From assembly GCF_009392895.1 (NCBI RefSeq), contig NZ_CP045488.1:186001-250000 (forward strand): a stretch of DNA of 64,000 nucleotides, given 5' to 3'. This document shows positions 4,768 through 59,229 of this stretch, one piece after another. This DNA comes from Natronorubrum aibiense (GTDB lineage: Archaea; Halobacteriota; Halobacteria; Halobacteriales; Natrialbaceae). The stretch's first letter is position 1. Each line of letters begins with the position of its first letter. The position numbers were made by a program, and so were the translations under genes. Below the pieces are notes generated by a model. The model made no database searches. It saw only the letters and a program-made list of their open reading frames with translations, and was not told the origin of the DNA.

Positions 4768-5580
4768 TTATTCGCCGGGCCACTCGTCGGCATCGAGTGG
4801 GTCGCCCGCGAGGAACGCGTCGATTCCCTCACGCGCGTCAGCTGTCGTACAGAGCGCCCCGAACTGCTCGTTCGAGTACTCGAGGGCGTCGTCGTACTCC
4901 CGTTCGACCATCTCGTAAAACGCTTGCTTGCCCATCTGGACCGCCGTCGGACTCTTGGTCGCGATGGTTTCGGCGAGTTCGAGGGCGTGCGCTCGGTGTT
5001 CGCCGCTTGGCGCCACGCGGTTGATCAGGCCCCACTCGAGGGCGGTTTCGGCGTCGATCAGTTCGCCGGTCAACACCAACTCGAGACACCGTTTTCTGGG
5101 AAGCACCTTCATCAGCGGCACGGACGGTCCCATACAGAACAGGCCGACTTTCGGTGCCGTTGCCCCGAACTGGGTTCCCTCGGCGGCCACGGCCAGATCA
5201 CAGGCCGCGACCAGCCCGATTCCGTTGGCGGCCGCGTGACCGTGGGCGGCAGCGATCACCGGCGTCCCCATCTCCGTGACCGTCTGGAACGGCGCTTCCA
5301 TCACCGTGACCCACTCCTCGTAGTCGGCTTCGGTCTCGTGGTCGCCGTGCTCGGAGAGATCGATTCCAGCCGAGAACGTCTTCCCGGCCCCATCGATGAC
5401 GATCGCCCGGACCTCCGAGTCCGCCTCGAGTGCGTGTAGTGCGTCGTCGAGGTCCCGCGCGAGGCCCGTGCTGAACGTGTTCATCGCCTCGGGTCGGTCG
5501 AGGGTGATCTGTCCGACGTAGCCATCGCGGCTGACTGTCACTGATTCGAACTGTTCGGTGTTGGCGGGCTCACTCGACAT
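4768..5580 (-). CDS. Enoyl-CoA hydratase/isomerase family protein
   Basis: 270 aa, a crotonase superfamily member. The N-terminal strand-rich core (VTVSRDGYVGQITLDRPEAMN) is followed by the oxyanion-hole signatures SAGIDL and AAHGHAAANGIGLVAACDLAVA. The usual second catalytic acidic residue region, FGATAPKVGLF, is altered, so the exact reaction (hydration, isomerisation or other crotonase chemistry on acyl-CoA) cannot be assigned. Likely in fatty-acid or amino-acid carbon-chain degradation in the cytoplasm, like the acyl-CoA dehydrogenase at 27 kb. ATG 5580 has an A/T-rich box (cattatgaat) about 38 nt upstream. Confidence 0.9.
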   Translation of the reverse strand: MSSEPANTEQFESVTVSRDGYVGQITLDRPEAMNTFSTGLARDLDDALHALEADSEVRAIVIDGAGKTFSAGIDLSEHGDHETEADYEEWVTVMEAPFQTVTEMGTPVIAAAHGHAAANGIGLVAACDLAVAAEGTQFGATAPKVGLFCMGPSVPLMKVLPRKRCLELVLTGELIDAETALEWGLINRVAPSGEHRAHALELAETIATKSPTAVQMGKQAFYEMVEREYDDALEYSNEQFGALCTTADAREGIDAFLAGDPLDADEWPGE

Positions 5581-5796
5581 TGATAGATCGCGTAGGTACG
5601 TGTGATGGCAACAATCATTATGAATCGATCGGTCGAACGCTGGTGCAGCCGTCGGTTCCGACGAGTTAGACGACGGTTCGGGCGCACTGGCGTCCCCGCT
5701 GGAGCGCCGCTGCCGTCACAGGATACCTCACTGAATGGCGGGGATGGCTGCGAAAGGATCATTAGGCAAGCCACTCGAACAGTTCAGTGAGAGTGA

Positions 5797-6084
5797 ATGG
5801 CCTGGGAATGCGGAATCGACGGCTGCGGTGCGGTGTTCGAGGACGTCGAGTCGACGATCGTCCATCAAGCGACGGAACACACCCGACAGGAGTGTCAGGT
5901 CTGTGGCACCGTCGTGCCTGACGGCTACCTCGCGATTCGACACGCCTTCACCGAGCATAGCCGCGCCGAATACGTCCGCGCCTACGGCGCGAGCTCCGAA
6001 GCGGTCCGCACCCGCGAGGAACTCTTAGAGGTGATTGACGACGTCGCGGACATGGAGACGATCGCTGCCGAGTTGAAGCGATAG
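5797..6084 (+). CDS. Small zinc-finger protein (DUF7565-like)
   Basis: 95 aa. Two linked zinc-binding modules are visible: C5/C10 with H22 and H27 (CGIDGCGAVF ... VHQATEH), then C33/C36 with H47 and H53 (CQVCGTVVP ... RHAFTEH), a C2H2-like pair. A helical tail follows (REELLEVIDDVADMETIAAELKR). It resembles a widespread haloarchaeal small zinc-finger family (I believe DUF7565). DNA, RNA or protein binding are all possible. It is convergent with spt5; the 222-bp gap between them holds three hairpins. Confidence 0.75.
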   Translation: MAWECGIDGCGAVFEDVESTIVHQATEHTRQECQVCGTVVPDGYLAIRHAFTEHSRAEYVRAYGASSEAVRTREELLEVIDDVADMETIAAELKR

Positions 6085-6212
6085 CGACCGCGTTTCCTCG
6101 AGCAGCGAGCCGTCTTGCCTCGCGTCGTATAAAATCCAGTGTAAAATACCAGCCGCTCCGTCGACGACTCGAGCCGAGTGCTTCGATTTCTACTGTTCGT
6201 CACTGTCTGCTC

Positions 6213-6318
6213 ACGGGCGCAACGCGCCCGTTCGCATGGTCCGACGAACTACCGTTCGACGCTATATTCAGCACGGCTTTGCCGCGCTGACTGCTTGACG
6301 AGCGCGTTAGCGCTCGTC
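6213..6318. terminator. Cluster of three hairpins between two convergent genes
   Basis: Three inverted repeats lie between the zinc-finger gene (+) and spt5 (-): ACGGGCGC-AAC-GCGCCCGT (6213-6231, perfect 8-bp stem); TCAGCACGGC-TTT-GCCGCGCTGA (6268-6290, 9 of 10 paired); GACGAGCGC-GTTA-GCGCTCGTC (6297-6318, perfect 9-bp stem), which includes the last codons and stop of spt5. They may act as a bidirectional terminator or 3'-end processing/stability element. No U-tract follows, so the role is inference. Confidence 0.5.
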
Positions 6319-6744
6319 GGAGTCGAGCACGCGAATCTGATCGCCCCGAACCGTCACCGGGATCGGAACCGTTGCCTCGTACAGTTCGACAGTCACCTGA
6401 TCTTTACCTTCGTCGATGCGCTGGACCTGAGCTTTCTCGCCTTTGAACGGACCAGCGATGAGTTCGACGATGTCCCCTTCGGCGATTCCCTCGACGTCCG
6501 GCTTCGGCGAGAGGAAGTGCTCGACCTCCGAGATGTCTGAGGTGCCGGGCACGATACTCCGGGCGTGGGGAATGTCCTCGAGGACACGGTTCAAGACGGC
6601 GTCGCCATCCGCTTCGACCATCACGTAGGAGGTCAGCGAATCGGGCGCGAGTGCGGCGTGGATTTCCGGCTCCTCGCGGTTGATGATCATGTCCGCGACG
6701 GTGCGCTCTTGGCTCGCCGTGGTCTTGACTGCGTAAATACCCAT
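6307..6744 (-). CDS. spt5: Transcription elongation factor Spt5 (NusG family)
   Basis: 145 aa, the usual archaeal Spt5 length. Residues 1-85 form the NGN domain ([28 protein letters not shown]); residues about 90-135 form the KOW domain ([23 protein letters not shown]). Spt5 pairs with Spt4 on the RNA polymerase clamp to raise processivity and couple transcription to translation. Its ATG overlaps the secE stop (TAATG), the same secE-nusG order seen in bacteria. The last codons form one arm of a hairpin. Confidence 0.96.
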
Positions 6745-49732: not shown

Positions 49733-50806
49733 TCAGAGCGCGAGGTAGCCCGCGTTGGGGAGGAGTCCGAGCAGATAGAGGATACCGAGGAGGAACATGA
49801 AGATCGCGATCGCCATCGCTGGCGGGTCGACGTGCGTGCCGGAGTGAGAGTAGAACATTCGCTGGGTTACTTCGGCGAACAGGCCGCTGATCGCACCGAA
49901 CACGCCGGCGACGAGCAACGCGACCGGTTCGCTTCCGATGGCCGGCATCGCGATGATCGCGCCCACTGCGCCGAGCAGCGTGATGTGGTGGGTGACGGGG
50001 ATCTTCTCGACGCCGAGGTTGAGAAACAGCAGGCTGATCGCGGAGATCGCATAGCCCAGGAAGATGCTTCCCGTCTCGAGCCAGATGTAGCCGCCGAGGA
50101 CCCCACCGACGAGGCCGATAGTGGCGACGCCGGACCACTTGTACTGGTGGGGCAGCCACGGTTCGGTCGCCAGTCGGTTGGTCTCGGTGCCGCCGTCGGC
50201 CGCCACGCGTTTCTCTCCGCGCTCGAACGGCGACATGTCGAGAATCCCTGCACCCGCCACCGTGCCGATGAGCGGATAGCCGAACGCGACTCGGGCCAGG
50301 AAAGCCGTCGCGACGACCGACAGCGCGATGTTGTCAGTCGGGAAGCCGATCCCGTTCATCACCTGTGTGATGAGCATCCCGACGGCGCCGAAGACCGCAC
50401 CGACCGCGAGGATATCGGGTTTGGTCCCGAACGCGTACAGGATGTTCTTTCCGAAGTGGTAGTCCCACCCCTCCGGTTCCATTTCAGGGTACTTCCGACC
50501 GGCATACGCCGTCGCGGCGACGCCGCCGGCGAAAGCGACGTGGGGGCCGGTCACCATCCCGAAGCCGATCACGCCGGTGATGTCCGCGGCGAGTCCGCCG
50601 GTTTCGATGGTTTCGAGCGTGCCGAGCTCCCGCTGGAGGATCGCAACGCCTTCACCGAGGAAGACGACGAACCCCGTAAAGATGAACGCGGGCAGCGCAC
50701 CGAGCGCCGCGCCGAATGCGCCACCGGCGAGGGCGGCGATCAACAGGAGGAGAAACTGTTCGACCTCCAGCCCGATGACCGGGAGCTGCAGGAGTGCCTG
50801 AAACAT
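49733..50806 (-). CDS. glpX: Polytopic membrane protein of the glycerol locus (haloarchaeal GlpX, putative glycerol facilitator)
   Basis: 357 aa with about nine hydrophobic helices spanning the full chain, Gly/Ala-rich (LLLLIAALAGGAFGAALGALPAFIFTGF; TGVIGFGMVTGPHVAFAGGVAATAY; LVAGVFGAISGLFAEVTQRMF). Located immediately after glpK (3 bp between the stop and the ATG), as in Haloferax where the gene is called glpX and proposed to be a glycerol facilitator. It shares no aquaporin NPA motif, so the transport role is unproven. It is unrelated to bacterial GlpX fructose bisphosphatase. Confidence 0.85.
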   Translation of the reverse strand: MFQALLQLPVIGLEVEQFLLLLIAALAGGAFGAALGALPAFIFTGFVVFLGEGVAILQRELGTLETIETGGLAADITGVIGFGMVTGPHVAFAGGVAATAYAGRKYPEMEPEGWDYHFGKNILYAFGTKPDILAVGAVFGAVGMLITQVMNGIGFPTDNIALSVVATAFLARVAFGYPLIGTVAGAGILDMSPFERGEKRVAADGGTETNRLATEPWLPHQYKWSGVATIGLVGGVLGGYIWLETGSIFLGYAISAISLLFLNLGVEKIPVTHHITLLGAVGAIIAMPAIGSEPVALLVAGVFGAISGLFAEVTQRMFYSHSGTHVDPPAMAIAIFMFLLGILYLLGLLPNAGYLAL

Positions 50807-50809
50807 CGG

Positions 50810-52345
50810 TTACTCCTCCGTCGCCCAGTTCAGTGACCGCTCGACGGCGTCGCTCCAGCGGTCGTATCGCTTGTCGGCCGTCTCTCTGCCCATCTGTGGT
50901 TCGAACTCGTTGTCGATCTGCCAGTTGTCGCGCAGGCTGTCGACGTCGTCCCAGTAGCCGACGGCGAGCCCGGCCGCGTAGGCCGATCCCAGTGCCGTCG
51001 TCTCGTCGACGACCGGCCGAACGATCTCCGAGTCGATGATGTCCGACTGGAGCTGACAGAGGAAGTTGTTCTTGACCGCGCCGCCGTCGACTTTCAGGCT
51101 CGTCATCTCGATGCCCGAGTCAGCCTCCATCGCTTCCGCGACGTCACGCGTCTGGTAGGCGATCGACTCGAGGGTCGCTCGAACGACGTGTTCTTTTCGG
51201 GTGCCGCGGGTCATCCCGACGATGGTGCCGCGTGCGCGCTGATCCCAGTGGGGCGCACCGAGGCCGGTGAAGGCCGGGACAACGTAGACGCCGTCGGTCG
51301 AATCGACGCTACGAGCGAGTTCGGCCGTCTGGGACGGATTATCGATCAACGACATGTCCTCGAGCCACTCGATCGCCGCGCCGGTGATGAAGATCGAGCC
51401 CTCGAGTGCGTACTGGACGTCCTCGCCCGAGCGCTGGAAGCCGATCGTCGTCAACAGCCCGTGGTCGCTCTCGACGGCCTCGTTACCCGTGTTCATGAGG
51501 AAGAACGAGCCCGTTCCGTAGGTGTTCTTGGCGTCGCCGGCGTCGAAACAGGTCTGGCCGAACAGGGCCGCCTGCTGGTCGCCGAGCGCGCCAGCAACGG
51601 GCACCTCGGCCTCGAGGAAGCCCTCGGGATCGGTCGTCCCGTAGGTCTGCTCGTCGCTCGAGGGCCGAACCTCGGGCAACATCGCCTTGGGAATCGAGAA
51701 CTCCTCGAGGAGTTCGTCGTCCCACTCGAGTTCGTGGATGTTGTAGAGCATCGTCCGCGAGGCGTTCGTCACCTCGGTAATGTGGTTGCCCGTGAGGTTG
51801 TAGATCAGCCACGTGTCGATCGTTCCGAACAGCACGTCGCCTTTCTCCGCCCGATCGCGGATGTCGTCCGGCCGCGACCGCTCGAGTTTGATCGGGTCCG
51901 CGTTGTCGAGCAGCCACTCGGCTTTCGTCGCCGAGAAGTAGGCGTCGGCCTCGAGGCCGGTTTTTTCGCGGATCGTACCGACCAGCTCGTCCTCCTCGAG
52001 TTGTTCGACGCGGTCGGTCGTGCGCCGGTCCTGCCAGACGATCGCGTTGTGGACTGGCCGACCCGAGTCAGCATCCCACAAAAGCGTCGTTTCGCGCTGG
52101 TTGGTCACGCCGATGGCCTCGAGTTGGTCGGGTGCGACCCCGGCTTGCCCGAGTGCCTGCGTGATGACGCGTTTGGTATTCTCCCAAATCTCCATCGGGT
52201 CGTGCTCGACCCAGCCGGGTTCGGGATAGATCTGTTCGTGCTTCTCGTATGCGTTCGCGACGACCTGTCCGCCGTGGTCAAACACAATAAAGCGCGTCCC
52301 GGTCGTCCCCTGGTCTACTGCACCGACGTAGGTTTGTTCTGTCAC
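50810..52345 (-). CDS. glpK: Glycerol kinase
   Basis: 511 aa, FGGY family. Signatures: VGAVDQGTTGTRFIVFDHGG at the N-terminus, TNQRETTLLWDADSGRPVHNAIVWQDRRT, and the C-terminal MTSLKVDGGAVKNNFLCQLQSDI and TALGSAYAAGLAVGYW. Makes glycerol-3-phosphate in the cytoplasm for GlpABC. Divergent from glpA across 310 bp. A TATA box (plus-strand cattataaatg, 52424-52434) predicts a leader of about 58 nt. Confidence 0.97.
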   Translation of the reverse strand: MTEQTYVGAVDQGTTGTRFIVFDHGGQVVANAYEKHEQIYPEPGWVEHDPMEIWENTKRVITQALGQAGVAPDQLEAIGVTNQRETTLLWDADSGRPVHNAIVWQDRRTTDRVEQLEEDELVGTIREKTGLEADAYFSATKAEWLLDNADPIKLERSRPDDIRDRAEKGDVLFGTIDTWLIYNLTGNHITEVTNASRTMLYNIHELEWDDELLEEFSIPKAMLPEVRPSSDEQTYGTTDPEGFLEAEVPVAGALGDQQAALFGQTCFDAGDAKNTYGTGSFFLMNTGNEAVESDHGLLTTIGFQRSGEDVQYALEGSIFITGAAIEWLEDMSLIDNPSQTAELARSVDSTDGVYVVPAFTGLGAPHWDQRARGTIVGMTRGTRKEHVVRATLESIAYQTRDVAEAMEADSGIEMTSLKVDGGAVKNNFLCQLQSDIIDSEIVRPVVDETTALGSAYAAGLAVGYWDDVDSLRDNWQIDNEFEPQMGRETADKRYDRWSDAVERSLNWATEE

Positions 52346-52655
52346 TGGTAGTCACCCATAGCGTACTGCTCACGCGATGTCTTTACCGGTGGTCGCGTGC
52401 TACTGGTAAACAAATTCGACGATCATTATAAATGTTCCTGAAAGTGTAATAGTATCAGAATATTCTCTCGGCAATATTGGCGAAACGCATCCAGAAGCAG
52501 CTGAAGAACCCGTCCGAAAAACGTGATCTCACCGGTAATAGTCGTCACTCTTGAATTATTTCATGCGTGGTATTTTCTACCACTATCTGTTGTTATGGCT
52601 GTTGGTCGAGCGTCGATAAAATAAAGAGCAGGGGGACCTAGGTACGAACCAAGGG
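52346..52655. promoter_or_regulatory. Divergent glpK/glpA control region
   Basis: Features: (1) inverted repeat TTTACCGGT-N11-ACTGGTAAA (52382-52410; eight of nine paired), covering the probable glpK start site; (2) glpK TATA box 52424-52434 (minus strand); (3) perfect inverted repeat GTGGTA-N5-TACCAC (52567-52583), about 30 bp upstream of the glpA TATA box; (4) glpA TATA box cgataaaataaag (52614-52626), about 37 nt before ATG 52656. The middle section is A/T-rich and holds no gene. The two repeats share the GGTA/TACC words and may bind one regulator, for example GlpR. Confidence 0.6.
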
Positions 52656-54359
52656 ATGACAACCCACACTGAAGTCCTCGTTCTCGGCGGGGGGTCGACC
52701 GGCTGTGGCATCGTCAGAGATCTGGCGATGCGCGGCCTCGACGTAACTCTCGTCGAACGGGGTAATCTGACGGAGGGGACGACGGGCCGCATGCACGGGC
52801 TCTTGCACAGCGGTGGCCGATACGCCGTCTCCGATCAGGCCAGCGCGATCGAGTGTATCGAGGAAAACGAAATCCTCCGGGAGATCGCGGGTCACTGCGT
52901 CGAAGAGACCGGCGGCCTGTTCGTCCAGCGACCCGAGGACTCGGACGATTACTTTCGGGAGAAACTCGAGGGCTGTCGTGAGTGCGACATTCCAGCGCGC
53001 GTCCTCTCGGGACGGGAAGCGCGCGAGGTCGAACCCTATCTCGCAGACGACGTTAAACGCGCGATCGAAGTGCCCGACGCGGCAGTCGATCCGTTCCGAC
53101 TCTGCGTGGCGAACGCGATCGACGCCGAAACCCACGGCGCACGCATCGAGACCCACGCCGAGGTGGTCGACCTCCTGCGTGACGGCGACGGCATCCACGG
53201 CGTGAAAGTGCGCCACACGTCGGGGCCGGGCAAACGGACCCACGCGGTCGCCGGGACGACCGAGGAGATCACGGCCGACTACGTCGTCAACGCGACGGGC
53301 GCGTGGGCCGGCCAGATTGGAGACATGGCCGACCTCGAGATTGCGGTCCGCCCCTCGAAAGGCGTCATGACGATCATGAACGTCCGGCAGGTCGACACCG
53401 TCATCAACCGCTGTCGGCCGAAAGGCGACGCCGACATCATCGTCCCTCACGAGACGACGGCGATCCTCGGCACCACCGACGAGGAGGTCTCGGACCCGGA
53501 CGACTACCCCGAGGAGCAGTGGGAGGTCGACCAGATGATCGACACCCTCTCGGAACTCGTCCCGATCCTCTCGGAGGCGCGGACGATTCGGTCCTTCTGG
53601 GGCGTTCGCCCGCTGTACGAGCCGCCGGGAACCGGCACCACGGATCCGACGGACATCACGCGGGATTTCTTCTTACTCGACCACGCCGATCGCGACGGCG
53701 TCTCCGGCATGTCCAGCATCGTCGGCGGCAAGCTGACGACGTATCGAGCGATGGCCGAAGAGATCGCCGACCACGTCTGTGACAAACTCGGCGTGCGCGC
53801 CTCCTGTGCCACCGCCGACGAACCGCTCCCCGGCAGCGAAAGCATCGAAACCCTCGAGGCCGGCATGGACGACTTCGGCCTCCGTTCGCCGGTCGCCCGC
53901 CGGAGCAAACAGCGCCTCGGTAGTCGAGCGAGCGAGGTGCTCGACACTGACGCGGCGAATCCGGTCGTCTGCCAGTGCGAGGGCGTTACGCGCGCGGAGA
54001 TTCAGGACGCGATCTCCCAGTCGGGGACGGACCTGAACGCGGTTCGCATCCGCACCCGCGCCTCGATGGGAAACTGTCAGGGCGGCTTCTGCTGTCAGAA
54101 TATGTCGAACGAACTCCACCCCGAGTACGACGAGGAGACCGTTCGGGCGGCGCTCGACGAACTGTTTCAGGAACGCTGGAAGGGCGAACGCCACGCGCTG
54201 TGGGGCGAACAGCTCTCCCAAGCGATGCTCAACTACGCCCTGCACGCGACGACGATGAACCGTGACCGCGACCCCGCAAGCGAGTCGAGCGACCTCGAGT
54301 ACGCGGCGTTCGACGGCGGCCAGCGGGCGGCCGAACCGCGCGCCGACGGGGGGAACTGA
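52656..54359 (+). CDS. glpA: Anaerobic-type glycerol-3-phosphate dehydrogenase subunit A
   Basis: 567 aa. N-terminal FAD site [28 protein letters not shown], then [25 protein letters not shown]-like [15 protein letters not shown], and the C-terminal Fe-S domain (BFD-like): [13 protein letters not shown] and [10 protein letters not shown]. It oxidises glycerol-3-phosphate to dihydroxyacetone phosphate with FAD. In haloarchaea the gpdABC complex is the main glycerol-catabolic route. The first gene of glpABC, followed within 2 bp by glpB. Confidence 0.95.
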
Positions 54360-54360
54360 G

Positions 54361-55650
54361 ATGGCCATTGAAGACGACGTCCTCGTGATCGGCGGCGGAC
54401 TCGCCGGCGCGACGGCCGCACTCGCCGCAGCGGAGCAAGACGTGCAGGTACGGCTAATAACTCACAAACAGAGCACGCTGCGCCACGCCAGCGGGCTGAT
54501 CGACGTGCTCGGCTACACCCCCGAAGGTGACGGTCCGCTCGTCGACCCCTTCGACGCTCTCTCCGACCTCCCCGACGGACATCCCTACGAGCGCGTCGGA
54601 GCCGAGGCCGTCCGCGAGGCGCTCTCGTTCTTTGACGACGTCGCCGGCGAAGCGTATGCTGGCGCACACACGGACGCAAATGCCCTGGTCCCGACCCACG
54701 GCGGCACGGTTAAACCGACCGCCCGTTACCCAGCCTCGACGGCCGCCGGGCTGGCGAGCGACGACCGGGACGCGCTGCTGGTCGGCTTCGAGACCCTTCC
54801 GGATTTCGAGGCCCCGTTAGCTGGAGCACACCTCGAGGCTGCCGGCGTGCCGTTTTCGGCTCGCGGCGTCACGCTGTCGTTCCCCGGTATCGTCCGCGAC
54901 GACGCGAAGGTGACGCGGTACGCCCACCTGCTCGACCAGAACGAATCCGTCTCGACGAGTGCAGGGGAAACCTGCGCGCGCGAGGCGCTCGCCGCGGCCG
55001 TCGAGGCCCACATAGAGGGCGAGTCTCGAGTCGGCTTCCCCGCGATCTTGGGCGACGAGCACGCCGCCGAGGTGCGAGCCGACCTCGCGGACGCCCTCGG
55101 CGTCGACGTCTTCGAGGTCCCGATGGGGCCACCCAGCCTGCCGGGACTGCGACTCGAGGACCTGCTCTACGATGCACTCGAGGCCGCGGGCGTGCGGGTG
55201 ACCTCGGGCGTGCCGGTGGTCGAGTACGAGACGGGTGCGGACGGCGACCGAATCGATCACGTCGTCGTCGACCGCACCGGCTCGAAACTCCCCCACCGCG
55301 CCGACCAGTACGTCCTCGCGACGGGCGGGCTCGTCGGCAAAGGTGTCCGATCGGAGCGCGACCGCGTGTACGAACCACTCTTCGACTGTCACGTTCCCCA
55401 CGCCGCCGACCGCTACGACTGGTTCGTCGACGACGTCTTCGGCGACCAGCCCTACGCGCGCTTCGGCTTGCGCGTCGACCGCGAGTTGCGGCCGCTGACC
55501 GTCGCCGACGACCCGGAGTTTTCGAACCTGCGCGCGGCTGGCGCGGTTCTGAGCGGCTACGACTTCGCGGCGGAGAAATCCGGCGGCGGCGTCTCGCTCG
55601 CGACAGGCTACGTCGCCGGGACGCGCGCCGGCGAGGAGGGCGGCGAATGA
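54361..55650 (+). CDS. glpB: Anaerobic-type glycerol-3-phosphate dehydrogenase subunit B
   Basis: 429 aa. FAD/FMN-binding VIGGGLAGATAALAAAEQDVQVRLIT at the N-terminus. GlpB passes electrons from GlpA to the membrane subunit GlpC. ATG 54361 lies 2 bp after the glpA stop; longer frames overlap glpA and are non-family. The C-terminus has SGYDFAAEKSGGGVSLATGYVAG, the family end. 76 bp separate it from glpC. Confidence 0.93.
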   Translation: MAIEDDVLVIGGGLAGATAALAAAEQDVQVRLITHKQSTLRHASGLIDVLGYTPEGDGPLVDPFDALSDLPDGHPYERVGAEAVREALSFFDDVAGEAYAGAHTDANALVPTHGGTVKPTARYPASTAAGLASDDRDALLVGFETLPDFEAPLAGAHLEAAGVPFSARGVTLSFPGIVRDDAKVTRYAHLLDQNESVSTSAGETCAREALAAAVEAHIEGESRVGFPAILGDEHAAEVRADLADALGVDVFEVPMGPPSLPGLRLEDLLYDALEAAGVRVTSGVPVVEYETGADGDRIDHVVVDRTGSKLPHRADQYVLATGGLVGKGVRSERDRVYEPLFDCHVPHAADRYDWFVDDVFGDQPYARFGLRVDRELRPLTVADDPEFSNLRAAGAVLSGYDFAAEKSGGGVSLATGYVAGTRAGEEGGE

Positions 55651-55726: not shown

Positions 55727-57118
55727 ATGAGCGACGCAGAACACCCTACCGACGACGGCGTATCGAGCGACGACGAGTTCGAACCGATTCAGGTCTTTCC
55801 CGAGGCCGAGGAGATGGATCTCCGGCCAGGGGCCGACAACTGTTATAAGTGTTCGACCTGCGACACGAACTGTCCCGTCGCCGAGGTCGACGACGAGTTC
55901 CCCGGGCCGAAGTTCCAAGGCCCGGAGCAGTGGCGACTCAAACGACAGGACGACCACGACATCGACGACTCCGTGATGAAGTGTTCGAACTGTATGCGCT
56001 GTGATAGCGCCTGCCCCTCCGAGGTGCCGCTCTCGCAGATGCACAACACGGCTCGAGGCGAGTACGTCGACGAGCACATGAACAAACTCTCTCGAGAGTA
56101 CATCCGTAACCGACTCCTCGCGAACTACCGGCGACTCGCGCCACTGGCCGCGACCTTCCCCCGCACGGCGAACTTCGTGATGGGGCTGTCGGTCACCCAG
56201 TGGCTCGGCGAGAAGACGCTGGGCATCACGAGCGAGCGGGAGTTCCCCGAGTTCGCGACCGAGACGTTCCGGGAGTGGTGGACGGTGCGAGGTGGCAACG
56301 CCACCTCGAAACAGCGAGCGCAGGAAGCGCGAGCAGAGCGCGGCGCAAAGGTCGAAAACTCCGACAAGCGCATCGCGTACTTCCACGGCTGTTACTCGAA
56401 CTACAACACCCCCGAGGTCGCGAAGGCGCTCGTCCGCGTCTACGAACACTTCGGCTACGAGGTCATGGTCCCCGATCAGGCCTGTTCGGGCACGCCGATG
56501 TTCGCCAACGGCATGCTCGAGGACGCTCGCCGGGCCGCCGAGACGAACGTCAGTGAACTCGCCGATGCACTCGAAGCGGGGGCCGACATCATCGCCTCCT
56601 GTAGCTCCTGTTCGATGTCGATTCGCCAGGAGTACCCCGAACTGTTCGACTTCGAGGGGACCGACGACGTCGCCGCGAACACCTGGGACGCCGTCGAATA
56701 CCTCCGCGTCCACGAGGACCTCGAGGGCGAACTCGAGGGGACTTCCCTCGAGGACGAGTCCTTCGCCTATCACGCACCGTGTCATTCACGTAACCAGGGC
56801 CTCGATGGACAAACGATCGAAGTGCTAGGGGCAATCGATGGGATCGACGCACACGACGTCGGCGACTCCTGTTCTGGAATCTCCGGGACGTACGGCTGGA
56901 AGGAAGAGAACTACGAGACGTCGATGAAAATCGGCGAGGAGATGTTCGAGCACATGGACGACGCGCCCGCAGAGACCGGCCTGACGGAGTGTCCGACCTG
57001 CTCGATGCAGATGGAACACGGCACCGGCTACGAGATCAAACACACCCTCGAGATCCTCGCAGCGGCGCTCGTGGGAACCGATCTCGGAACCGACCGCGAC
57101 GGCCAGCAGGCGAGGTAA
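55727..57118 (+). CDS. glpC: Anaerobic-type glycerol-3-phosphate dehydrogenase subunit C
   Basis: 463 aa. Two ferredoxin-like [4Fe-4S] motifs, CYKCSTCDTNCPVAE and CSNCMRCDSACPSEV, are followed by two CCG domains (YFHGCYSNYNT ... CSGTPMFANGM ... CSSCSMSI; APCHSRNQGLD ... CSGISGTYGWK ... CPTCSMQM). It anchors GlpAB and reduces menaquinone. A signal or anchor helix (FPRTANFVMGLSVTQWLG) lies near residue 140. Its TAA stop overlaps the ATG of the next gene (TAATG). Confidence 0.95.
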   Translation: MSDAEHPTDDGVSSDDEFEPIQVFPEAEEMDLRPGADNCYKCSTCDTNCPVAEVDDEFPGPKFQGPEQWRLKRQDDHDIDDSVMKCSNCMRCDSACPSEVPLSQMHNTARGEYVDEHMNKLSREYIRNRLLANYRRLAPLAATFPRTANFVMGLSVTQWLGEKTLGITSEREFPEFATETFREWWTVRGGNATSKQRAQEARAERGAKVENSDKRIAYFHGCYSNYNTPEVAKALVRVYEHFGYEVMVPDQACSGTPMFANGMLEDARRAAETNVSELADALEAGADIIASCSSCSMSIRQEYPELFDFEGTDDVAANTWDAVEYLRVHEDLEGELEGTSLEDESFAYHAPCHSRNQGLDGQTIEVLGAIDGIDAHDVGDSCSGISGTYGWKEENYETSMKIGEEMFEHMDDAPAETGLTECPTCSMQMEHGTGYEIKHTLEILAAALVGTDLGTDRDGQQAR

Positions 57119-58278
57119 TGAATTTAGAAGAGCGCATCGCCCGGCGACGGTCAGCACGAAAGGACCGGGAGATTATCGTCGACCGTGACGACCTCAGTCC
57201 GGTCGTGCACCGCTCGGAGCCGGTGGGACGGGGACCCGTCTTAGAGCAGTTGCTCGATGCCCTCGAGCCGGTGTTCGACGGCGAGTTGCCGCCGCCGGTA
57301 GCTGTGATCGGTCCCACGGGATCGGGCACGTCGGCGATCATCACGGCGCTGTTCGACGCGTTGAACGACCGACTGAGCGAGTCGACCCGGACGATCGGCA
57401 CGACGACGCGTGCCGGCAGTACCGGGCCGGTGACGTGGTTCGTTTACGTCGACGGGCGACGCGTCGAGAGCGCCTTCGCCTTCTACCGGGCCGTGTTGTC
57501 CGTCCTTTCGAGCGATCCCGTTCCCAAAAGCGGCGTCGGCACCGGCGAACTCCGCGACCGGCTCCAGACCCGACTGGCCCAGCCGAACCACCGTGCAGTG
57601 ATCGCGCTCGACCACCACGACGAGCCCGAATCCCTCGCCTACGACCGGATCGACGACCTGCTCGAGCCGGTCGCCGACAGCGTTTCGACCGTCGCTGTTG
57701 GACAGCGCGAACCCGACGACTGGAACGACGAACGACCGAGCGTACCGGTTCCCGCCTATCGAAACCACGAACTCGTCGATGTTGTGACCGACCGCGCTTC
57801 GACCGGCCTCGCCGCGGGCGTGCTGGATCACGAGTCGATCCGTGACGTCGCAACGTGGGCAGACGGCAATGCACACGATGCGCTCGCCGCCCTGTTCGGT
57901 GCTGGCGTGCTCGCGACCGATGATGGCAGCGACCGGATCGAACCGCACCACCTCGAGATGGCACAGGAGCACGTCCCAGAAAACGGCGTTCACCTGGACC
58001 GCGTGCTGTCGCTCTCGAAGACGCGTCAGCAGGTACTCTCCGACCTCGTCGCCGTCGACTCGGCCGACAGACCCATCCGCGAGGTCGCCGCAGAGATCGC
58101 CAGCCGGTCGTCGCTGACTGCGGGGACGGTCAAACGCTTTCTCTACGAACTGGCCGATCGCGGCATCATCGAACGCGTCCCGCTGCCCGCAAACGGGAGC
58201 GGCCGTCGACCCAGCGCCGTCGTCCCGCGGTTTCCAACGATCGTGTTTCGGGCGCTGGGACCAGCCACGAACAATTGA
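57118..58278 (+). CDS. Orc1/Cdc6-like AAA+ protein with degenerate ATPase motifs
   Basis: 386 aa. Residues 28-110 look like the Orc1/Cdc6 AAA+ start (PVVHRSEPVGRGPVLEQLLDALEPVF). The Walker A position reads G65-PTGSG-T71-S72, so the essential lysine is a threonine; the Walker B region reads VIALD165-H166, so the Glu is His. A C-terminal winged helix (LSKTRQQVLSDLVAVDSADRPIREVAAEIASRSSLTAGTVKRFLYELADRGIIERV, 298-354) remains. It is translationally coupled to glpC (TAATG). A loss of ATP hydrolysis with retained DNA binding would suit a regulator of the glycerol operon. A replication role is less likely. Confidence 0.85.
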   Translation: MNLEERIARRRSARKDREIIVDRDDLSPVVHRSEPVGRGPVLEQLLDALEPVFDGELPPPVAVIGPTGSGTSAIITALFDALNDRLSESTRTIGTTTRAGSTGPVTWFVYVDGRRVESAFAFYRAVLSVLSSDPVPKSGVGTGELRDRLQTRLAQPNHRAVIALDHHDEPESLAYDRIDDLLEPVADSVSTVAVGQREPDDWNDERPSVPVPAYRNHELVDVVTDRASTGLAAGVLDHESIRDVATWADGNAHDALAALFGAGVLATDDGSDRIEPHHLEMAQEHVPENGVHLDRVLSLSKTRQQVLSDLVAVDSADRPIREVAAEIASRSSLTAGTVKRFLYELADRGIIERVPLPANGSGRRPSAVVPRFPTIVFRALGPATNN

Positions 58279-58302: not shown

Positions 58303-59229
58303 TCAGTACTCGAGGTCGTCAGTGTAGCGGTCGACGAGCAAGACCGCGCCCGCACCGACGATACCCGCGACGACGGCCGCGACGGGCGTTCCGGTGGACG
58401 ACTCTCCGAGATTGGTCCAGACTTCCGTGACCGGCAGTCGCAACGATCCGACCATCAGACTCACTAAAAACGCGAGCGTCGCTGCCCGATAGCGCTCGAG
58501 CGCGTATCCCACCACGTGGGCCATCGTGAACAGACCGAGCACCGCGCCGACACCGAAGACGGCGACGACCGTGCCGGATTCGATCACGGGCGCGATCGCG
58601 TCACCCTCGAGCAGCCCGATCAGTCCGTCGACGAACGTACTCAGCGTGCCAGTCATGTACTCGTACTGGCCCAGAATCAGGAGGAAAAAGGCCCCGGAGA
58701 CGCCCGGCAGGACCATCGCACAGATGGCGATCGCACCGGCGACGAAGACCACCAGCGGGCTATGCGGGACGCCGTCCGCCGTCACGCCCGTCACGACGAA
58801 CGCGAGCACGATCGCGACTGCCGAGACCAACAGCCGGCCGCCGGTCCACGTCCCGATCGCTCCGTAGAGGACGATCGCCGACGCCGCGATCAACCCGAAG
58901 AAAAAGCCGTACGTCGGCACCGGGTACGTCGTCGCCGCCCCGTGCATCACCCGCGAGAGGATTACGACCGCCGTCCCGATCCCTAATCCGAGCGTGAGCA
59001 AAAACGGGAGTTCGATCCGCTCGAGTTCCGTCCGGAGGGTCGCCCGTGCTTCGGGGTCGTGGGGTCGAAGTGCGGGTCGAAACGCTCGCGGATCGATCGA
59101 CGTGATCGCTCGGATCAGCCGATCGTAGATCCCGACGATCAACGCGATCGTCGCGCCCGATACACCGGGGACGACGTCTGCCGACCCCATCGAGATCCCT
59201 TTCAGGTATACGGCGAGAAACTCCCGCAT
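58303..59229 (-). CDS. DUF368 family polytopic membrane protein, candidate polyprenyl-phosphate translocase
   Basis: 308 aa with eight to nine membrane helices and the family signatures KGISMGSADVVPGVSGATIALIVGIYDRL (N-terminal) and CAMVLPGVSGAFFLLILGQYEYM (repeat), both with the P-G-x-S-G-A core. Bacterial DUF368 (PopT) proteins are now known to flip undecaprenyl phosphate back to the cytoplasmic leaflet. Here it sits 88 bp downstream of aglB on the same strand, which suggests recycling dolichyl phosphate released by N-glycosylation. This link is inference from context. Confidence 0.9.
   Translation of the reverse strand: MREFLAVYLKGISMGSADVVPGVSGATIALIVGIYDRLIRAITSIDPRAFRPALRPHDPEARATLRTELERIELPFLLTLGLGIGTAVVILSRVMHGAATTYPVPTYGFFFGLIAASAIVLYGAIGTWTGGRLLVSAVAIVLAFVVTGVTADGVPHSPLVVFVAGAIAICAMVLPGVSGAFFLLILGQYEYMTGTLSTFVDGLIGLLEGDAIAPVIESGTVVAVFGVGAVLGLFTMAHVVGYALERYRAATLAFLVSLMVGSLRLPVTEVWTNLGESSTGTPVAAVVAGIVGAGAVLLVDRYTDDLEY

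Follow-up and report, generated by a model that had tools for sequence, protein, structure and literature searches.

The window considered here is the whole stretch of 64,000 nucleotides of Natronorubrum aibiense (Natrialbaceae, Halobacteriales) that was analysed, and all coordinates given below refer to it. It contains a glp locus in which glpK, encoding glycerol kinase (50810-52345, minus strand), lies opposite to the plus-strand genes glpA, for subunit A of the glycerol-3-phosphate dehydrogenase (52656-54359), glpB (54361-55650) and glpC (55727-57118). Downstream of glpK on the minus strand is a gene for a membrane protein called "glpX" (49733-50806), which has no Pfam domain over cut-off, is a conserved neighbour in the glpK-glpX-ORCX arrangement and is possibly a glycerol transporter. 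The open reading frame reported at 57118-58278 in the preliminary description is present on the plus strand and encodes 386 amino acids from the ATG at 57118, and its overlap with glpC is as described, the stop codon TAA (57116-57118) and the start codon ATG (57118-57120) having one base in common (TAATG). We use ORCX as a label, coined in the present analysis, for this gene and its orthologues. In many genomes the gene after ORCX or glpC is a DUF368 or undecaprenyl-phosphate translocase-like gene (PF04018), located here at 58303-59229 (minus strand).

ORCX has the composition of the Orc1/Cdc6 fold, an AAA+ module with a Cdc6 lid and a winged helix. In profile searches it scored 83.5 bits against TIGR02928, below the curated cut-off of 181.3 that is passed by 15 other matches in the same genome, and its Cdc6 lid domain was above the Pfam cut-off. 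A profile built from 49 ORCX homologues recovered SsoOrc1-1 at an E-value of 3e-25, and the AlphaFold2 model (pLDDT 89, pTM 0.86) had as its best PDB matches SsoOrc1-1 (Foldseek E 2.5e-18) and ApeOrc1 (3.9e-17), with Z of about 23. In Pfam searches, no DeoR domain was matched in ORCX and the TrmB profile reached 12.5 bits against a cut-off of 25.6 (E 0.14), over the winged helix only. Several genomes (G026, G048, G084, G091 and G055) have an insertion near residue 205 of the protein.

The ATPase motifs of ORCX are degenerate. The Walker A motif reads GPTGSGTS (G65-PTGSG-T71-S72; 57310-57333, plus strand), with threonine in place of lysine at residue 71, and the Walker B motif reads A-L-D165-H166 (57610-57615, plus strand) in the context LDHHDE, with histidine in place of the glutamate. 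Both departures had been noticed from the single sequence, and neither is a sequencing accident, because GTS is fixed in 43/43 sequences of the Natrialbaceae "T-type" and DH in 81/81 members of the family. The 38 "K-type" homologues, nearly all of them from other families than Natrialbaceae, have all kept the Walker A lysine (GK[ST]). At the sensor-2 arginine position, where initiators have GDAR, ORCX has GNAH, with His253 in 79/81 sequences and tyrosine in the other 2, and the stretch HHDEPE after Walker B is nearly fixed among T-type proteins. In the tree, support is 100/100 both for a single clade of T-type sequences and for the separation of the DH family from the canonical Orcs of the window's genome. 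With one T-type clade and DH throughout the family, loss of the catalytic glutamate probably goes back to the root of the ORCX family and loss of the Walker A lysine to a single later event in one clade of Natrialbaceae. The preliminary description had asked whether glp-linked homologues share the lysine loss, and had named intact Walker motifs in homologues at the same position as evidence against its reading. The loss is common to glp-linked homologues within this clade; those outside it retain the lysine, including three located after glpC (L079-L081) with GKS, but in all of them Walker B is still DH, so that such evidence exists only in part. As the glutamate is replaced by histidine family-wide, the sensor-2 arginine by histidine or tyrosine and, in the present clade, the lysine by threonine, the AAA+ module of ORCX probably no longer cycles ATP.

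The C-terminal winged helix (58012-58233, plus strand) is intact, as had been claimed, with an AlphaFold2 pLDDT of about 87-95 over most of the domain. Its recognition helix TVKRFLYE (residues 337-344; 58126-58149) is the most conserved stretch of ORCX and is invariant in 81/81 sequences, as are the residues G362, R363, P365 and S366 of the wing (GR.PS). ORCX, a relative of AAA+ initiators, would have lost its ATPase motifs in two stages while keeping its DNA-binding surface invariant.

ORCX is present in 103 of the 121 genomes of the window's own family and in 198 of 293 Halobacteriales genomes, and glpK in 247 of these same 293. glpK accompanies ORCX in all 198 genomes, and ORCX is absent from each of the 46 genomes that lack glpK (Fisher p 2e-27, uncorrected for kinship), counts in which species share ancestry and are not independent, genomes with and without ORCX existing inside the same genera. 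ORCX adjoins glp genes in nearly all of 80 loci or contigs, and at least six arrangements were seen: it can follow glpC or the pair glpK-glpX, lie between glpA and glpK, run divergently from glpA or convergently with glpC, or be present as split copies at separate glp clusters. A linkage that outlives so many rearrangements is typical of a pathway-specific regulator, and ORCX is found only with the pathway. In two clusters without ORCX (L199 and L205) the DUF368 gene comes immediately after glpABC, so that synteny is kept and ORCX alone is gone. In two genomes (G347 and G321; L126-L129) ORCX is present twice, with a copy behind glpX and another that is divergent from glpA, in separated glp clusters.

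In Haloferax volcanii, the gene HVO_1537 presumably adjoins glpABC (HVO_1538-1540), and given this place it is probably a member of the ORCX family in a model organism. HVO_1537, also named orc15, figures among the Orc1/Cdc6 genes to which no origin is assigned (PMC2841640); the literature that we found assigns it no function, and a 2020 review regards origin-less haloarchaeal Orcs as probably dormant (PMC7776575). ORCX could accordingly be an orphan Orc, dormant and decaying after integration or rearrangement as suggested for Haloferax (PMC7776575), and the loss of its ATPase motifs and the status of orc15 are what such decay would look like. We consider this extremely improbable, since the protein is under constraint across the whole order (mean column identity of 60% in alignment A1, with an invariant DNA-binding helix), stays with glp across many rearrangements and has a distribution nested inside that of glpK.

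The intergenic region between glpK and glpA carries sites that such a DNA-binding surface could recognise. In Natrialbaceae it holds a strongly conserved block (52380-52434), which includes an operator-like dyad, TTTACCGGT-N11-ACTGGTAAA, at 52382-52410 in the glpK promoter; it is kept in all Natrialbaceae T-type loci, and a TATA-like element of glpK, TTTATAAT (52425-52432, minus strand), immediately precedes it in the direction of glpK transcription. A pattern search found the exact dyad twice in the 4.35-Mb genome, one match being that at glp. A second, degenerate dyad, GTTATGGCTGTTGGTCGAGCGTCGATAAA, which had escaped the preliminary description, is found at 52592-52620, 36-64 bp upstream of the glpA start. 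Of the two repeats proposed originally as binding sites, the one at 52382-52410 is this real and conserved dyad, and the other, at 52567-52583 (TGGTATTTTCTACCA), is unconserved in the Natrialbaceae alignment and was dropped. The half-site is approximately GTTTACYRG with a nearly invariant TTTAC core, which fits the invariant recognition helix. We take the half-site to resemble ORB cores, a likeness on which no claim rests.

A first, strict definition of the dyad, requiring 9-bp arms with no more than 4 mismatches, failed to recover most sites, and the working definition, TTTAYY-N17/18-RRTAAA (29-30 bp), came from the inverted repeats seen in promoters of K-type loci. When one mismatch is allowed, this pattern is found upstream of glpK in 79/83 loci with ORCX (T-type 39/39, K-type 40/44) and upstream of glpA in 77/79 (T-type 39/40, K-type 38/39), where K-type counts are in part the discovery set and the T-type glpA count is not independent, since glpK and glpA are about 310 bp apart in these loci and the 350-bp upstream stretch takes in the glpK dyad as well. 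The glpA-proximal site, counted apart for this reason, is at the same offset in 37/40 T-type and in most K-type loci; in Natrialbaceae its left half is weak, with 2 mismatches. A few K-type loci have no clear dyad (at glpK in L099, L114 and L127, and in L133). Genomes without ORCX, like those added later, were not used for the definition. Among control genomes that have glpK and lack ORCX, an absence rechecked with a second query, the dyad was found at 1/30 glpK and 1/23 glpA promoters, for 0.25 and 0.15 expected from shuffles, a frequency close to chance that extends to genomes with preserved glpABC synteny. The same holds within a single genus (g45), with the dyad in 9/9 genomes that have ORCX versus one AT-rich, one-mismatch match among seven that do not, and within a single genome (G201), where the dyad is found at the glpK next to ORCX and is missing from a second glpK copy. 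A palindromic operator-like site that disappears together with ORCX is what would be expected of a local regulator.

The tie between ORCX and the dyad is one of co-occurrence, and haloarchaea possess TrmB- and GlpR-type sugar regulators, GlpR governing glucose and fructose genes (PMC12853182), so that the dyad could belong to another regulator, gained and lost together with ORCX, which would then be an accessory glp protein that merely co-occurs. This appears improbable to us: ORCX is the gene beside the sites, its winged helix is invariant, the dyad is missing where ORCX is missing, as the controls indicate, and related dyads occur at paralogues linked to ugp. That ORCX itself binds the dyad is, by contrast, highly probable from these sequence comparisons.

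The locus was also compared with the canonical Orc genes of the same genome, most of which have a single short repeat in 3-9 copies at their flanks, although random 4.1-kb stretches reach 0-4 copies and only the larger arrays clearly exceed this background. These repeats vary from locus to locus (GTTTCCGACGT, TTTCCGGTGAA and others), and one canonical Orc gene (L209, C4:117493-118602 of the same genome) has nine flanking copies of TTTCCGGTGAA, an array that is likely the replication origin of its replicon. Elsewhere in the genome (L221, C1:503815-504558), another Orc1-like stretch, perhaps a gene fragment, also scores under the TIGR02928 cut-off. No ORB-like array was found at ORCX, no 11-mer occurring three times in its 4.2-kb locus. 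Based on its fold, on its best matches SsoOrc1-1 and ApeOrc1, which are bound to origin DNA, and on its intact winged helix, ORCX might still be thought to initiate replication or to silence an origin, to be in the glp operon by chance and to couple carbon supply to replication, a link that the preliminary description had put forward. In addition to the missing array, this is contradicted by the position of ORCX in a separate clade far outside canonical Orc1, by its score under the TIGR02928 cut-off, by the joint loss of ORCX and its dyad and by the family-wide absence of the Walker B glutamate, and we regard a role in replication as very unlikely.

Paralogues of ORCX are found at other transport operons. 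In a few Natrialbaceae (L117-L120 and L122; G001, G042, G005, G044 and G088) a second gene, ORCX2, is the last of a ugpBAEC-like operon, whose genes have as best matches ugpB, ugpA, ugpE and ugpC of the glycerol-3-phosphate ABC transporter, only UgpC being over the cut-off. A related dyad (at most 2 mismatches) is present in 5/5 ugp promoters, against 0/200 shuffle sets; it is placed in the ugpB promoter, some 100-125 bp before the start codon. A third Orc1-like paralogue with DH (L121 of G066, 5419-6540) is divergent from a phnDCE phosphonate transporter, and the intergenic region carries a TTTACG...CGTAAA pair with a different spacing; DH is shared by the majority of the ugp- and phn-linked paralogues that were read. 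A search of the 293 genomes for further ugp-linked paralogues returned, beyond the four known Natrialbaceae copies, strong matches that resembled ordinary glp-linked ORCX.

Taking together homology, fold, motif losses, operon linkage and co-occurrence with glpK and with the dyad, which form the computed basis of this reading, ORCX is very probably a transcription factor that derives from Orc1/Cdc6 and acts locally on the glp genes, presumably as a repressor, and not a replication initiator. The idea of a DNA-binding regulator, first raised from the window alone, has thus gained strong computational support, ORCX tracking glp across the order and the dyad at glpK and glpA being present or absent with it. 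We propose that an ORCX dimer most likely sits through its winged helices on the 29-30 bp dyads of the glpK and glpA promoters and most likely represses glpK and glpABC until glycerol or glycerol-3-phosphate is available, the AAA+ pocket probably acting as a fixed or ligand-sensing dimerisation module. ORCX would be made from the very operon under its control.

The direction of this control is less certain than its existence, and repression is what we moderately favour. At glpK, the TATA-like element precedes the dyad, which is placed near or over the expected start site, a repressor geometry. At glpA, the dyad has a nearly fixed offset (-64 to -36) and abuts the upstream side of a TATA/BRE-like AATAAAG, the usual spot for archaeal activators, and Orc1-2 of Sulfolobus activates DNA-damage genes (PMC9738581). 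ORCX could then be an activator recruiting the transcription machinery to glpA and glpK, which we hold as a minority possibility, contrary to the geometry at glpK; it is a variant of the preferred regulator reading, with which its probability overlaps.

The switch of ORCX is unlikely to be ATP hydrolysis, because the protein is naturally devoid of the glutamate whose loss was reported to lock Orc1-2 in the ATP-bound state and to kill the cell (PMC9738581). The association of this class of proteins with glycerol-3-phosphate and organophosphate genes suggests an effector of such kind, and glycerol-3-phosphate or a related organophosphate is our tentative candidate. On a more speculative and rather doubtful view, an initiator branch may have become a set of operon-specific metabolite sensors, in which the degenerate AAA+ pocket (DH, with the threonine and HHDEPE in Natrialbaceae) would bind glycerol-3-phosphate or organophosphates and not ATP, switching a winged-helix dimer on or off the glp, ugp and phn promoters.

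Glycerol is among the favourite foods of salt-loving archaea, and ORCX is an apparent switch of the genes for its use. GlpABC of H. volcanii is reported to be up-regulated by glycerol (PMC11962113), and a 2025 paper states that the mechanism by which glycerol metabolism is activated in haloarchaea is understood only in part (PMC12853182). The literature searched, which covers few subscription papers, yielded no report in which an Orc protein regulates glp genes. The present reading joins this question to that of the orphan Orcs deemed probably dormant (PMC7776575), by naming a specific one, probably Haloferax orc15/HVO_1537 with its orthologues, as the likely glp regulator with a candidate operator. 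The distribution of ORCX and of the dyad also predicts which genomes should be without such glp control.

Among known proteins, SsoOrc1-1 (2qby) and ApeOrc1 (2v1u) have the same full-length fold as ORCX. Canonical archaeal initiators have GK[ST], DE, the sensor-2 arginine and adjoining ORB arrays, whereas ORCX lacks DE, the sensor-2 arginine and the array and, in the present clade, GK[ST]. GlpR (of the DeoR family) and TrmB/GfcR of haloarchaea also control carbon-source genes but belong to protein families unrelated to ORCX. The Escherichia coli STAND ATPase MalT is a catabolic regulator that combines a P-loop NTPase module with a DNA-binding domain; the likeness to ORCX is by analogy only, as MalT differs in architecture and uses ATP, and ORCX is closest to Orc1 in sequence and structure. 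Orc1-2 of Sulfolobus/Saccharolobus islandicus is, as proposed here for ORCX, an Orc1/Cdc6 paralogue with AAA+ and winged-helix domains that acts as a transcription regulator and not as an initiator (PMC9738581). Orc1-2 is however a global regulator of the DNA-damage response acting on the non-symmetric motif ANTTTC and requires both ATP binding and hydrolysis, the E154A mutation being lethal (PMC9738581), whereas ORCX is linked to one operon and to a long symmetric dyad, and is naturally without the Walker B glutamate and, here, also without the Walker A lysine.
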